Source: Dehalococcoidaceae bacterium (GTDB lineage Bacteria; Chloroflexota; Dehalococcoidia; Dehalococcoidales; CSSed11-197). From it: DNA of 36,935 nucleotides. This document shows, piece after piece, positions 31,943 through 36,935 of the stretch; position 1 is the stretch's first letter; each line of letters starts with the position of its first letter. The notes under the pieces are model-generated. The model saw only the letters and a list, made by a program, of their open reading frames with translations, was not told where the DNA came from and made no database searches. Position numbers and translations under genes: made by a program. The stretch spans positions 1 to 36,935 of the forward strand of contig JAFGLQ010000020.1 in assembly GCA_016928015.1 (NCBI GenBank). Reading direction: 5' to 3'.

Positions 31943-32734
31943 ATGCTGACAGACTGCCACGCCCATTTATATCTAAAAGAGTTCGACCACGACTTTTCAC
32001 AGGTGCTTGACCGGGCCGCGCACGCGGGCATAGATCGTATGGTCAATGCGGCGATAGACATTGCTTCTTCCAGGAAAGTAATAGACATGGCTACCGCTTT
32101 TCCACCGCTCTATGCTGCTATCGGGATTCACCCTAATTCGTTAGATGCTTTACCTGCCGGGTATATGGACAGGCTGGAACAGATGGCTGCGGAGCCTGAA
32201 GTAGTTGCTATAGGTGAAATAGGCCTGGACTACTACCTCGGCGCCGAGCACAAAGAAGCTCAAATGGCTCTTTTTAAAAATCAGCTGGACCTGGCCGGTT
32301 CAATGGGACTGCCGGTAATACTGCACTGCCGCGATGCTGAAGATGACATGCAGGCGCTGCTTGCTGATTGGATCAGCCGTACTCCCCCCTGCCGGGGCAA
32401 ATGGAGAGGCATCAGGCACTGCTTTAACGCTGATTTGCCGACTGCCGGTTTTTATATCGATGCAGGTTTCATGCTTTCCTTCGGGGGTTACATCGGATAC
32501 CCTTCGTCTACCGGGTTGCGCAGGACCGTCGAACAGATTCCGATTGAAGCAATTCTGCTGGAAACCGACTGCCCCTACCTGCCGCCGCAGGAGTTCCGGA
32601 GGAAAAGAAATGAGCCGGCATACCTTGCCTTTACCGCCCGGGTAATGGCCGAAGTCAAGGGAATGGCCTACCGGGATACTGCCAGAATCACCACCGCCAA
32701 TGCCGGTATATTATTTAATTTCGAGCCTGCCTGA
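31943..32734 (+). CDS. tatD: TatD-family metal-dependent hydrolase/DNase
   Basis: TatD proteins are TIM-barrel metallohydrolases with 3'-5' exonuclease activity on DNA, involved in repair and nucleic acid turnover. The 263-residue protein has the metal-binding DCHAHLYL at the N-terminus, AIGEIGLDYYLG, LPVILHCRDAEDD, GIRHCFNAD and LLETDCPYLPPQ. The ATG lies 22 bases after nuoN, so it may be read from the nuo transcript. Its last 20 bases overlap the convergent nth gene. Confidence 0.94.
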   Translation: MLTDCHAHLYLKEFDHDFSQVLDRAAHAGIDRMVNAAIDIASSRKVIDMATAFPPLYAAIGIHPNSLDALPAGYMDRLEQMAAEPEVVAIGEIGLDYYLGAEHKEAQMALFKNQLDLAGSMGLPVILHCRDAEDDMQALLADWISRTPPCRGKWRGIRHCFNADLPTAGFYIDAGFMLSFGGYIGYPSSTGLRRTVEQIPIEAILLETDCPYLPPQEFRRKRNEPAYLAFTARVMAEVKGMAYRDTARITTANAGILFNFEPA

Positions 32735-33362
32735 TAACTGTATATGCCGAAGGGCACAAGGCAGCCAGGATACAGCGCTCACACTGCGGCCGCCTGGCTA
32801 TGCAGACCCGCCGCCCGTGCTCTATGAGTAAATATGTTATATGCCCCCAGTGCTCCCGGGGCACAATTTCCATCAGATCATTTTCTATCTTTTCAGGGTC
32901 GTTGTGCCGGCTCAGTCCCAGCAGACGGCTCAGCCTTTTTACATGCGTATCGACAGCTATTCCCTCCCTAACCCCGTAGCCGTTATACAGCACGACATTG
33001 GCGGTTTTACGGGCAACTCCCGGCAGAGTTACCAGTTCGGCCATGGTTTGGGGAACCCTGCCCTGATATTTATCGTATATAATCCCGGCCGCCCCGATAA
33101 TGCTGCGGGCTTTGGCATGATAGAAACCACATGGTTTTATTATCTGCTCCAGCTCTTCGATCTCAGCCCCGGCGTATTGTCCGGCATCGTGGTAGCGGGC
33201 AAAAAGGCGCGGGGTTATCTTGTTTACGGTAACATCGGTGCACTGGGCTGAGAGAATGGTAGCGATTAAAAGCTCCAGGGTATTGGAATAATTGAGGGCT
33301 ATGCGGGCATCGGGGTACTCCTGGTCCAAAAGGATTATTATCCGGCTGATTCGGTTTTTCAT
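32715..33362 (-). CDS. nth: Endonuclease III (DNA glycosylase/AP lyase)
   Basis: The enzyme removes oxidised pyrimidines and nicks the abasic site in base excision repair. The 215-residue protein has the helix-hairpin-helix TLPGVARKTANVVL with catalytic Lys119, VDTHVKRLSRLLGL with Asp138, and the [4Fe-4S] loop C187-x6-C194-x2-C197-x5-C203. These positions are almost identical to those of E. coli Nth. GAGG lies five bases before the ATG. It is convergent with tatD, with a 20-base overlap. Confidence 0.96.
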   Translation of the reverse strand: MKNRISRIIILLDQEYPDARIALNYSNTLELLIATILSAQCTDVTVNKITPRLFARYHDAGQYAGAEIEELEQIIKPCGFYHAKARSIIGAAGIIYDKYQGRVPQTMAELVTLPGVARKTANVVLYNGYGVREGIAVDTHVKRLSRLLGLSRHNDPEKIENDLMEIVPREHWGHITYLLIEHGRRVCIARRPQCERCILAALCPSAYTVIRQARN

Positions 33363-33388
33363 ATTTACCTCAAAATTGCCCGGATAAT

Positions 33389-33423
33389 ATTATAGCAGGC
33401 AAAAGCATCTTGCCTGCTATAAT
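33389..33423. terminator. Long hairpin between the DUF5679 gene and nth
   Basis: ATTATAGCAGGCAA (33389-33402) and TTGCCTGCTATAAT (33410-33423) are perfect complements around a seven-base loop. It lies after the DUF5679 stop on the minus strand and 27 bases before nth. There is no U-tract. Both arms carry TGCTATAAT, an extended -10 box, so on the minus strand it may also act as the nth promoter. Confidence 0.6.
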
Positions 33424-33444
33424 AAACCCCTTTGTAAATCTGGT

Positions 33445-33585
33445 TCAGGCTTTTCCAATCTTAAACATCTTGGTACCACATACCGGGCAAACCCCTTGCG
33501 TGGCGGGACGCCCGTTCTTCATGGTGATACTCCGGGCATCTTTCATTTCCCTCTTGGCACGGCATTTGACGCAGTAACCCTGCAT
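33445..33585 (-). CDS. Small zinc-ribbon protein, DUF5679-like (46 aa)
   Basis: A 46-residue product, shorter than usual gene-finding cutoffs, begins MQGYCVKCRAKREMKDA and ends CPVCGTKMFKIGKA. Two CxxC pairs (residues 5/8 and 33/36) form a zinc-ribbon, and the middle holds a basic TMKNGRPATQG loop. This matches the small DUF5679 family common in Chloroflexota and archaea; its function is unknown, though such ribbons often bind nucleic acid. Support for a real gene is strong: GGAGGTGA three bases before the ATG, a near-consensus promoter at 33616-33644 with an operator-like repeat, and a hairpin after the stop. Confidence 0.85.
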   Translation of the reverse strand: MQGYCVKCRAKREMKDARSITMKNGRPATQGVCPVCGTKMFKIGKA

Positions 33586-33598
33586 TGCTCACCTCCGT

Positions 33599-33644
33599 AT
33601 GTTTGCTAGATAGCAAGCATAAACCAATTACCCTGCAGTGTCAA
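33599..33644 (-). promoter_or_regulatory. Promoter and inverted repeat of the DUF5679 gene
   Basis: On the minus strand TTGACA (33644-33639), 17 bases and TATGCT (33621-33616) predict a start near 33609. An inverted repeat, ATGTTTGCTA-GA-TAGCAAGCAT (33599-33620, one mismatch), covers the -10 box and the start point, a position suited to a repressor. Confidence 0.65.
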
Positions 33645-33667
33645 TAGTTTTTATGTGTAATTTAAAC

Positions 33668-34246
33668 TTATTTTAAACGCTTGCCGACAGCCGCCCAATC
33701 GATGCATCCGAAGAAGGCGTCTATGTAATCAGCCCGTTTGAGGCCATAGTCGGTAATGTAGGCATGCTCGAACACATCCATTACCAGCAGAGGCTCGCAG
33801 CCGGCCAGGTGGCCTGTTTCGTGCTCGTTTATCCACTGGTTGAACAACCAGTTGGAGACAGAGTCCCGGTACAATATGACCCAGCCGATGCCCCTCATCT
33901 TGCCCGTAGCCTTGAAGTCGCTTTCCCACTGCTCGTAACTGCCGAAAGCCTGTTCGAGTAAACGGCCGGCTCCCGAACCGGTGTCCAGGTTCCCGTGTCC
34001 GCCCAGGTTGGTAAAGTACAGTTCATGCAGTCTCATTCCGTTAAACTCAAAACCAAAACGCCGCTTCATTTCAGCATACTCCGGAGAACCGCTACCTCCC
34101 GCACTGGAAAGGGCAGCGATGTTTTCGGCAAGCTTGTTGGTCCCGGCCACGTATCCCTGGTACAGTGTGAAGTGGTTGGAAAGCAATACCTGGCTGAAAC
34201 CCGGCATGCCCTGAAGATGGGAAAAGTCTTTTGCCGTATACGTCAT
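33668..34246 (-). CDS. Superoxide dismutase, Fe/Mn family (divergent)
   Basis: The enzyme disproportionates superoxide in the cytoplasm. The 192-residue protein has candidate metal ligands H25, H74, D157 and H161 (LSNHFTLYQGYV, RLHELYFTNL, MDVFEHAY), nearly the canonical spacing. It departs from the usual family: the first His motif lacks the HH pair and is one residue shorter than in E. coli SodB, and NHxFFW reads LHELYF. Metal preference (Fe or Mn) is not clear. The ATG at 34246 is chosen because AAGGAGG lies six bases upstream; the longer frame from 34321 overlaps the preceding gene and has no family match. It follows the ferritin-like gene by 32 bases, a natural oxidative-stress pair. Confidence 0.9.
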   Translation of the reverse strand: MTYTAKDFSHLQGMPGFSQVLLSNHFTLYQGYVAGTNKLAENIAALSSAGGSGSPEYAEMKRRFGFEFNGMRLHELYFTNLGGHGNLDTGSGAGRLLEQAFGSYEQWESDFKATGKMRGIGWVILYRDSVSNWLFNQWINEHETGHLAGCEPLLVMDVFEHAYITDYGLKRADYIDAFFGCIDWAAVGKRLK

Positions 34247-34278
34247 TTCAGGCCTCCTTGATGTATTATCTTCTAATA

Positions 34279-34809
34279 TCACGCACCATCGAGAGAATGA
34301 TGCTCCTTTTGCGCAAACCATCCGGCGGGGTCTTTCAGGTACTCCCGGTAATCGTTAAGCAGCAGATAATGCTCCCTTTCTTCTGCCATTATTTTTTCAA
34401 AAAAACCGCGTTCCAGGTCTGACCCGGCATCATCGGCCAAACTGCTGTAAAGCTCATAGGATTCATTTTCCATCTGCATGGCTTTATCGACGGCTTGTAA
34501 TTCGGTAGCGGCTACCTCTTTGCCGGCTTTCAAATCTGCCAGGCAATCGGCAAAAAAGGTACCCGAGGCGTGTTTTGGACCGGTTTCGGGAATAATGTCA
34601 GCCGGCCAGCCCTGGTTGTCCATAACCCGCTGGTAAATAATCTGAAAGCGCCTGGCATGTTCAGTTTCATCATTTGCCAGAGTTTCAAAGAGCTTCCGGC
34701 CGGCCATACCGGCGCTTTGCCGGGCGGCCTGCTGGTAATACTCTTTACCTTCAGCCTCCATTTTTAACGCATTCTGTAAAGCGACTGCCAACTTTTCTTT
34801 TTCGTTCAT
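34279..34809 (-). CDS. Ferritin-like / rubrerythrin-type diiron protein without rubredoxin domain
   Basis: The 176-residue protein is a four-helix ferritin-like bundle with a diiron site: E20 in LKMEAEGKEYYQ, E48-x-x-H51 (DETEHARRF), a Glu in MENESYELY and E144-x-x-H147 (EEREHYLLL). In anaerobes such proteins reduce peroxide or handle iron. There is no rubredoxin CxxC domain, so electrons must come from elsewhere. The ATG at 34809 with GAGGAGG six bases before it is preferred to the frame opening at 34827. It shares a promoter and probably an mRNA with the superoxide dismutase gene downstream. Confidence 0.88.
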   Translation of the reverse strand: MNEKEKLAVALQNALKMEAEGKEYYQQAARQSAGMAGRKLFETLANDETEHARRFQIIYQRVMDNQGWPADIIPETGPKHASGTFFADCLADLKAGKEVAATELQAVDKAMQMENESYELYSSLADDAGSDLERGFFEKIMAEEREHYLLLNDYREYLKDPAGWFAQKEHHSLDGA

Positions 34810-34844
34810 CCGGATCCTCCTCAGCAACTTGAATGTTCTGCCTT

Positions 34845-34915: not shown

Positions 34916-35926
34916 TTATACAATAGACCGAAAATCAACCAGTTCCGAGTACTCGATCAGGCCACTCATCGCTTTTGATGTAATGCCCAGGCCTGCTTCA
35001 ACCGCTGCGGCAACCGGGTTCAATCCGCCGATTAGAACAAGCCCCACTTTTCCCAGACCGACGGGAACCCCGCATACGGGTTTGCCAGCGTCTCCGGTAA
35101 TCAGCGGGGGATTTATGCCAGCGTTTGCCAGGTTCTCGAATACCGAGTTGACGTCATCCATGCAAATGGAGGGCACCTCCCTGAAATTTGCCAGTATCTT
35201 GCCATCACCCCGGTTGAGCACTTCCTGTACGCTGGTCATCTGGCCTGATATGAATATCTCGGACGGGTCCAACGAGGAGCCGCTGTATTCGATAAGGTCA
35301 GTAAACCTGAGCGGCACTTTATTCTTAAACTGCAAGATTCCCCCAAAACGTGAATCTATAGGTATACCGGCCTTCAGCAACACGCCGTTTATGACCAGGC
35401 TGCATACCGTTGCAAATGCCACTTTTGCTTCGGGCACAATCATCTCACCCAGTTTTTCTCCTTCCCGGGCGACTGCTACCAGGTTGGAAGCGCTTAACTT
35501 AACCTTTAACGCCGCCGACATCACTTTCAAAGCCGATTGAAAGTCCTCGATTGACACCAGAGATATGTTAATCGGCAATTTACCCGTTTGAGTAGAGGGA
35601 TTGAAGGTAACCTGATACGATAGCAGTTCGATGCGGTCGATAACGAAGCCTACTTTGTCAGCCACCATGGCGTCTTCAATTTCGGCAAGCCCCTGCGGGG
35701 TAATGACCCTGCCATCCCGGCGGCTTACCTTTGCAGTCAGTTCTCTTTCGTCCATAAGATTGAGATGGTAGCGTACACCGCGTTCGGATAACACGATGCC
35801 GTAATTTTCATTCAGCAGGCGCGCTATGACCTTGCTGCCTACCGCTCGGCGAGAATTGGCAATAATCTTGAGGATGGCCATCCTCTGGCGCTCTACCTCG
35901 ACCCCCTCCTGGTTGACAAGTCTCAT
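34916..35926 (-). CDS. NrpR-like transcriptional regulator (winged helix + one NRD/DUF128 domain)
   Basis: NrpR was defined in methanogenic archaea as the repressor of nitrogen-assimilation genes, released by 2-oxoglutarate; homologs occur in some anaerobic bacteria. This 336-residue protein has an N-terminal winged helix (ERQRMAILKIIANSRRAVGSK, then VLSERGVRYHLNLMDERELT) and one NRD domain, with DKVGFVIDRIELLSYQV at its start, DSRFGGILQ, SGQMTSVQEVL and GLGKVGLVLIGGLNPVAAA. Many archaeal proteins carry two NRD copies. GGGAGGA lies just before the ATG. It follows the HisF-like gene by 45 bases on the same strand, so the two form an operon. Target genes cannot be named from this window. Confidence 0.85.
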   Translation of the reverse strand: MRLVNQEGVEVERQRMAILKIIANSRRAVGSKVIARLLNENYGIVLSERGVRYHLNLMDERELTAKVSRRDGRVITPQGLAEIEDAMVADKVGFVIDRIELLSYQVTFNPSTQTGKLPINISLVSIEDFQSALKVMSAALKVKLSASNLVAVAREGEKLGEMIVPEAKVAFATVCSLVINGVLLKAGIPIDSRFGGILQFKNKVPLRFTDLIEYSGSSLDPSEIFISGQMTSVQEVLNRGDGKILANFREVPSICMDDVNSVFENLANAGINPPLITGDAGKPVCGVPVGLGKVGLVLIGGLNPVAAAVEAGLGITSKAMSGLIEYSELVDFRSIV

Positions 35927-35971
35927 CGATTCCTCCCGCTGCCTGTTGCCCTGATGCCGGCTCTGCGCCGG

Positions 35972-36742
35972 TTAGATTGTCTCAATTCCTTGGCTCTGCA
36001 AGTATTCTTTCACGCTACGAGGGGTAAGCTTGCCCGATATAAATACCGAGGCGGCCGCTACTCCGCTGGCTCCGGCATTAACGACTGCAGCAGCAAAATC
36101 GGCCAGCTTTCCGGCTCCGCCACAGGCGATAACCGGAATGGATACAGCGGCAGTCACCGCCTTTAACAACTCGATATCGTATCCAACCCCCGTTCCCGCC
36201 TTTTCCTGGCTGTTGAGGATAACAGAGCCGGCTCCCAGCATTTGGGCCATTTTAATCCATTCAACCAGGTTAAGCCCTGTGGCCACTTCCCCCGTGCGAT
36301 GCAGTATTTCAAACCGAGGGAGGCCGGTATCAGGTGCGTTCTTCCTGGCGTTAAGTGCAACCACAACTCTTTTACTGCCATAAGTTCTGGAAAGCCGGTC
36401 TATGATCGATGGATCGGTATCGGTATATACATCGACAGCAACCTTATCTGCTCCTGCTTTCAATATCTTTTCACAGTCTTCGAATGTGTTCATGCTGTTG
36501 CCAAAGATAACCGGAATACCGGCATTTTCAGCTGCTTTTGCGACAACAGGTGCCCACTTTTCAAATCGTTCCCGCGGTGAGTCAATATCGAAAAAAGCAA
36601 TTTGCGAAGCGCCGTTCTTGCCAAAATATCCGGCTAAGCTTATCGAATCGTCGCCGGTTCCGCCAGCGATCTGTCTGGAAAACCCCGTCAATTTCATGTT
36701 TTGCAGGTTAAAACAGGGTATGACTTGAACTTTTAAGGGCAT
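35972..36742 (-). CDS. HisF-like TIM barrel with both catalytic aspartates replaced by Asn
   Basis: The 256-residue protein aligns end to end with HisF, the cyclase subunit of imidazole glycerol phosphate synthase. Shared stretches include KAGADKVAVDVYTD, VVVALNARK, TGLNLVEWIKMAQMLGAG, GYDIELLKAVTAAVSIPVIACGGAG and VKEYLQSQGI. The catalytic Asp11 of HisF (PCLDV) is Asn12 here (PCFNL) and Asp130 (AIDAKR) is Asn131 (ALNARK). The first phosphate loop VGGGI is replaced by FGNSM, and the MDRDGT loop by QEKAGT. The second phosphate site (CGGAG) is kept. It is therefore unlikely to be a working HisF; a new reaction or a binding role is possible. The ATG at 36742 has GGAGG five bases before it, which excludes the ATG at 36754. 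Confidence 0.85.
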   Translation of the reverse strand: MPLKVQVIPCFNLQNMKLTGFSRQIAGGTGDDSISLAGYFGKNGASQIAFFDIDSPRERFEKWAPVVAKAAENAGIPVIFGNSMNTFEDCEKILKAGADKVAVDVYTDTDPSIIDRLSRTYGSKRVVVALNARKNAPDTGLPRFEILHRTGEVATGLNLVEWIKMAQMLGAGSVILNSQEKAGTGVGYDIELLKAVTAAVSIPVIACGGAGKLADFAAAVVNAGASGVAAASVFISGKLTPRSVKEYLQSQGIETI

Positions 36743-36786
36743 TGTTTCCTCCATGCGGGCGGCTAATATTGAACCACGATCGACAT

Positions 36787-36815
36787 ATTAAAGCACAACA
36801 AAATAGCAGTGTAAA
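36787..36815 (-). promoter_or_regulatory. Promoter of the HisF-like / NrpR-like operon
   Basis: On the minus strand TTTACA (36815-36810), 17 bases and TTTAAT (36792-36787) predict a start near 36780, 38 bases before the ATG at 36742. Each box differs from consensus at one position. Confidence 0.6.
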
Positions 36816-36834
36816 GCCGTTTATTCAGGCTTAA

Positions 36835-36875: not shown

Positions 36876-36935
36876 GGTGAGTGTAGCCCAGTGGTCTAAG
36901 GCGCCAGGTTGTGGCCCTGGAGATCGAGGGTTCAA
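36876..36935 (+). tRNA. tRNA-His (anticodon GTG), 3' end outside window
   Basis: The sequence begins with the extra G-1 typical of tRNA-His (GGTGAGTG acceptor strand, then TAG). It has a D-arm (GCCCAGTGGTCTAAGGC) and an anticodon stem CCAGG/CCTGG around TTGTGGC, with anticodon GTG at 36911-36913. It ends in the T-arm (GAGGGTTCAA) at the window edge. The 3' acceptor strand is not visible. Confidence 0.93.

Follow-up and report, generated by a model that had tools for sequence, protein, structure and literature searches.

HisF has long been known to use ammonia in vitro, and HisH is regarded as its normal source of nitrogen in vivo. The use of ammonia in vivo has been described in hisH mutants of K. 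pneumoniae, in which HisF supports histidine synthesis with ammonia (PMC5919458), and in C. glutamicum, where HisF uses ammonia without HisH (PMC3896937). The catalytic pair of the enzyme is formed by D11 and D130 (PMC11350729; we use the T. maritima HisF numbering throughout). Other HisF paralogues have another role, as is the case of the acetamidino-modification proteins WbuZ and AglZ-HisF2. Archaeal NrpR (MMP0607, MJ0159) has a winged helix and NRD, and belongs to the family of the 2-oxoglutarate-regulated repressor. Homologues of NrpR were already reported in Dehalococcoides (PMC1852104). In the papers that we searched, there was no work on a bacterial NrpR regulon, nor on HisH-free HisF in Chloroflexota.

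Here, we studied a locus where genes related to these two families are neighbours. The window, i.e., the whole stretch of DNA that was analysed, comprises 36,935 nucleotides of contig JAFGLQ010000020.1 of a Dehalococcoidaceae bacterium (GCA_016928015.1, hereafter G000; 1.6 Mb, 92% complete). Its closest named relatives are MAGs of Dehalococcoidales (Chloroflexota). This assembly encodes three HisF paralogues and, as far as was found, a single copy of nrpR. A check of the sequence confirmed that both open reading frames of the pair are real. The HisF-like gene (35972..36742, (-)) encodes a (beta-alpha)8 barrel of 256 aa (PF00977, E=9.4e-42). The NrpR-like gene (34916..35926, (-)) encodes a regulator of 336 aa with the domains of NrpR, a winged helix (PF08461, residues 16-83, E=6.3e-17) and one copy of the NRD (PF01995, residues 92-329, E=3.7e-82). 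The latter aligns with the structure of the MJ0159 domain (3nek, E=1.1e-18). Like its archaeal relatives the protein thus combines winged helix and NRD, but it is bacterial and has one NRD. These results bear out a preliminary description of this DNA, which placed a HisF-like barrel 45 bases ahead of a single-NRD regulator. The gap of 45 bp (35927..35971, (-)) contains the Shine-Dalgarno of nrpR (GGGAGGAATCG-ATG, 35924-35937). A good Shine-Dalgarno precedes the HisF-like gene as well (36740-36752), and a further ATG at 36754 overlaps it.

The same description proposed that the two genes share a promoter. A promoter-like TTTACA-N17-TTTAAT lies ahead of the HisF-like gene (36787..36815, (-)), and was not listed by a general sigma-70 scan because its score is below the scan cut-off. 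The conservation of this element and of the surrounding sequence in the four members of the genus carrying the pair (G000, G002, G003, G004) supports a shared promoter, short of proof. From this layout, the two genes are probably co-transcribed. On the other side of this region, the 5' part of a divergent tRNA-His (GTG anticodon; 36876..36935, (+)) was recognised by alignment to the tRNA-His of related loci and ends at the window edge. The tRNA-His also adjoins hisF-nrpR in G002, G003, G004, G012, G013, G048, and G049. Downstream of nrpR, the next gene is rubrerythrin-like (34279..34827, (-); PF02915, E=1.1e-13), in an order conserved in the genus, and is possibly on the same transcript. It is followed on the same strand by an Fe/Mn superoxide dismutase ORF (33668..34321, (-); PF02777, E=2.9e-23), whose true start is probably near 34246, and by an endonuclease III gene, the three genes spanning 32715-34827. 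Superoxide dismutase and endonuclease III also follow nrpR in this order in another family (G012).

The window protein resembles T. maritima HisF (1thf/1gpw) in its barrel fold, its length, its sequence (about 30-37% identity), and the phosphate-site residues of the C-terminal half. Yet, its active site is changed, as the preliminary description had noticed: D11 is replaced by N, K19 by G, D130 by N, D176 by A, and the GGG motif (80-82) by GNS. It also lacks N103 and the HisH-side Q123/E167. Its score with the HisF family profile (TIGR00735) is 182.5 bits, below the cut-off of 294.55. The AlphaFold model is a confident barrel (pLDDT 88), except for a loop of low confidence (residues 22-30), and its top Foldseek matches are all HisF or HisF-based designs (TM of ~0.9 to 1thf). 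Given the loss of these residues and the confident model, it is very unlikely that the protein is an IGP synthase, although it is predicted to be folded as a barrel. We rejected its identification as WbuZ (159.9 bits for a NCBIfam cut-off of 299.7) or as AglZ-HisF2 (144.4 bits for a cut-off of 310). The scores are far below these cut-offs and no sugar-modification genes were noted nearby.

To place this protein among its homologues we searched 61 genomes and fetched the neighbourhoods of the matches, which provided about 100 HisF sequences. They were classed in three types. Type A clusters with the T. maritima enzyme, follows HisH in its distribution, and is located in GOGAT/AmtB/GlnB/GlnA clusters. 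Type B includes most copies adjoining nrpR, and is located with nrpR and usually also with glutamate dehydrogenase (GDH) or a GltB-like protein. Type C includes the window protein and is one group of four sequences (support 100/100). In a smaller tree, types C and B were set against type A and T. maritima HisF (100/97), and the closest sequences to type C were the B' copies of two genomes of family f9, which occupy the same tRNA-His locus (84/82). Because type C has long branches, its position within B is uncertain; its grouping with A was disfavoured, short of rejection by the AU test (p-AU 0.066). Of the cells of type C at the 21 positions distinguishing A and B, 25 show the state of B and 7 that of A. 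The arrangement tRNA-His / hisF / (gltB) / nrpR is common to the type C genomes and to G012, G013, G048, and G049. Hence, type C sits at the ancestral position of type B. We found type C only in the genus of the window among 156 genomes of the order, with 446-472 bits in four genomes and 249 bits for the next best match. On these sequences, the changed active site is a derivation of this genus only. All four genomes encode an intact type B elsewhere (on contig C59 in the genome of the window).

The residues lost in type C (D11, K19, GGG80-82, N103, D130, and D176) are present throughout the core sets of types A and B; D11, K19, D130, and D176 are found in 52/52 type B sequences. The three type B proteins that were tested have family scores of 314-322 bits with TIGR00735, whereas two other type C proteins have 155-160 bits. 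Among the four type C proteins, position 11 is V/E/N/D, position 19 is N/Y/G/L, position 130 is S/G/N/R, and position 176 is E/A/A/A (N, G, N, and A in the window). They all have D at position 103 and lack the GGG motif. They keep D51 and the phosphate-site residues of the C-terminal half (G177, G202-G203, and, in three of the four, S225), and they have invariant residues of their own (W63, FGxxMN, and DxDxxR). The HisF-B' adjoining nrpR in family f9 (L083:7330-8079 and L076:7211) have kept the catalytic Asp and lost E167 and D98, and the one of L083 is below the HisF cut-off with 247 bits. From their sequences, they are perhaps intermediates between B and C. We also observed a divergent HisF with a long branch adjoining HisH at L268:1638 and L269:4365 (G020, G050; MLSKRLIVCLDV...).

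We then analysed the conservation of the pair. hisF and nrpR adjoin each other on the same strand in 18 fetched loci, one of them that of the window. In a scan of public genomes, hisF was encoded at most two genes from nrpR and on the same strand in 30 of 60 nrpR loci of Dehalococcoidia/Chloroflexota; the association of the two genes is therefore neither restricted to this genome nor a matter of chance. GDH was found at 17 of these 60 loci and a GltB-like protein at 26, and we confirmed the GDH and Glu_synthase domains of the neighbours of nrpR. A stand-alone protein of 520-560 aa with a glutamate-synthase domain and a Cys-rich N-terminus is repeatedly found beside nrpR (e.g., L163:2566-4161, and many other nrpR loci). 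In deltaproteobacterial nrpR loci, hisF was found in none of 20 and GDH in 12 of 20, and in Syntrophaceae-type genomes nrpR as a rule pairs with gdh without hisF. Hence, the association of NrpR with GDH is the wider theme, to which HisF was probably added in Dehalococcoidia, judging from gene content.

These data bear on the function initially proposed for the pair, i.e., that the barrel protein makes, removes, or senses 2-oxoglutarate or another ligand of NrpR and thereby feeds the regulator. The layout suggestive of co-transcription and the long-term pairing of HisF with NrpR would fit this idea. However, the conserved partners of NrpR have the family score and the catalytic residues of ordinary HisF, and the pairs of nrpR and gdh lacking hisF indicate that NrpR does not need the barrel. 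We regard it as highly improbable; the relatives account better for the pairing. The other suggestion, an uncharacterised nitrogen-linked route, is supported in part. The link to nitrogen is upheld by the neighbouring GDH, GltB-like, GOGAT, AmtB, GlnB, and GlnA genes and by a shared palindrome (see below). The route itself is most likely histidine biosynthesis, because the conserved versions are ordinary HisF and, in genomes lacking HisH, no other IGP synthase accompanies HisB and HisD.

The latter genomes are informative on the role of type B. In the 61 genomes, HisH (TIGR01855) and type A were found together in 36, apart in 4 (1/3), and neither was found in 21 (p=3e-12). No such link with HisH was seen for type B. 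HisH was absent in 14 of the 36 sampled genomes with type B, and in 23 of the 60 genomes of the whole order with matches to the type B/C profile (type A was checked in the first 61 genomes only); absence was judged from MAGs, whose gaps can mimic it, several being 90-95% complete and G021 being a single contig. Type B is the only HisF in 14 genomes lacking HisH, and 11 of these 14 encode HisB and HisD. These 11 genomes are presumably capable of histidine synthesis, in which case the HisF step must fall to type B. Since type B is also found in 20 sampled genomes having type A, it is more than a mere replacement. The sequences also fit work without HisH: Q123 is present in 39/39 type A and 0/52 type B proteins, and R5 in 39/39 and 16/52. 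The pre-strand segments, on the face of the barrel turned to HisH, hold more than their share of the positions fixed in A and changed in B (8/20 vs 41/248, p=0.008), in a test where we assumed the limits of the strands and the HisH-contact roles of R5 and Q123. Type B is therefore probably, as far as sequences and gene content can tell, an ammonia-dependent IGP synthase working without HisH, although another glutaminase could serve it. The use of ammonia without HisH would make it similar to the HisF of K. pneumoniae hisH mutants and of C. glutamicum. Yet, hisH is native to those bacteria, whereas type B is found here where HisH and type A are absent, and is associated with NrpR and GDH.

To identify a candidate operator of NrpR, we searched for gapped palindromes upstream of 101 operons containing nrpR. 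The motif GGCAA-N4-TTGCC was found upstream of 13 of the 101 operons, and at most 2 in shuffled sequences. It extends to TACGGCAA-N4-TTGCCGTA, for which the 1.74 Mb of loci contained 26 sites when up to 2 mismatches were allowed, and one shuffle contained 0. Many of these sites immediately precede nrpR, gdh, the gene of the GOGAT ferredoxin, or similar genes, in Chloroflexota and in Syntrophaceae-type genomes. The strict pattern TACGGYAA-N4-TTRCCGTA matched 12 sites in the six genomes of the genus and 0 in the backward control. Sites with 3 mismatches were no better than the backward-read control in single genomes, and we therefore used only sites that match the strict degenerate pattern or are directly before nitrogen genes. 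The methanococcal NrpR operator is GGAA-N6-TTCC, which is unlike this palindrome. It was present in 3 of the 101 upstream regions, with no enrichment. The palindrome TACGG(C/T)AA-N4-TT(G/A)CCGTA is probably the operator of NrpR in these bacteria, given its enrichment at nrpR, gdh, gltB, GOGAT, and hisH genes.

In the genome of the window, hisH has a perfect palindrome (TACGGTAAACGTTTACCGTA) 39 bp upstream (G000:C3:13495-13514; L270:4496). The palindrome is also present before hisH in G001, G003, and G004, before gdh in G003 and G004, and before the GOGAT ferredoxin gene in G002 and G005. A weaker site is found 60 bp before hisF-B in G002, and none before hisF-B in G000. Since hisH is preceded by the palindrome, the supply of glutamine to histidine synthesis is probably under the control of NrpR, as far as this candidate operator indicates. 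The genome of the window has other sites, one before the gene of an 876-aa protein with a PPDK_N domain (G000:C61:4614, L298) and one between the MTHFR and SurE genes (G000:C115:3085, L299). The palindrome is absent before the type C-nrpR pair of the window (36743-36830), where the best match has 5 mismatches, and likewise in this genus. Autoregulation by such a site is therefore unlikely there.

What, then, is the role of type C? Its reading frames are intact and of full length in four species at 45-66% amino acid identity, with synonymous sites near saturation. The simplest reading of these sequences is that type C is kept by purifying selection, a qualitative statement since saturation makes the values of dN/dS inestimable. 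The gene evolves about twofold faster than its neighbour (dN of 0.23-0.49 vs 0.13-0.24 for NrpR), which also fits the slow decay of a dying, functionless duplicate, carried along because it lies between the promoter of the operon and nrpR, with intact type B elsewhere. The variation of the catalytic positions among the four species (N/V/E/D; N/S/G/R) would be expected of such a duplicate, and type C is apparently missing in G005 (an assembly 77% complete), where nrpR is in another context. However, a decaying gene accounts poorly for full-length frames at such divergence, for the new invariant residues specific to type C, and for a barrel predicted with good confidence. We thus consider decay rather unlikely. 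Alternatively, type C might be an active enzyme catalysing a new reaction on a phosphorylated substrate, tied to nitrogen metabolism. This would agree with the residues it has kept and with the conserved set that it has gained, but there is no evident conserved acid-base pair to replace the lost one, and, nrpR, rubrerythrin, and superoxide dismutase aside, no partner enzyme is conserved next to it. An active enzyme is therefore still harder to credit. The most likely function of type C, on its residues, would be a non-catalytic role with retained phosphate binding.

Taken together, we favour the reading that the window carries a derived form of a nitrogen module of Dehalococcoidia, with an ammonia-using type B ancestor, NrpR acting over both sets of HisF, and type C retained in a role other than IGP synthase. 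We give it a probability of roughly 0.55. The ancestral module would consist of NrpR, type B HisF, and a glutamate enzyme (GDH or the GltB-like protein). Type B would act alongside GDH on free ammonia and need no HisH, whereas type A and HisH would take glutamine and are placed with GOGAT. The common palindrome suggests that NrpR may control both sets. In the genus of the window, type C would have arisen from the type B HisF of the nrpR locus by loss of the catalytic residues, with an intact type B elsewhere in the genome. Type C would be kept by selection, probably still binding a phosphorylated ligand through the preserved half site at the C-terminus, and its role would be either regulatory, as a pseudoenzyme, or a new reaction. 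One may speculate further that there are two IGP synthases for two nitrogen routes, both under NrpR, with type C as a dead partner reporting a histidine or purine intermediate to the regulator; this is a long shot.

Our results suggest that these bacteria couple histidine synthesis to the nitrogen source that the cell chooses. If the proposed module is correct, it would add a bacterial NrpR regulon with a candidate operator. In a lineage with a sole HisF and no HisH, the ammonia-only reaction would occur naturally, and the location of type B near NrpR and GDH would neatly illustrate an enzymatic step for which each nitrogen source has its own isoform. Finally, B, B', and C may represent a natural series of loss of catalysis, leading from a metabolic barrel to a regulator or to decay.
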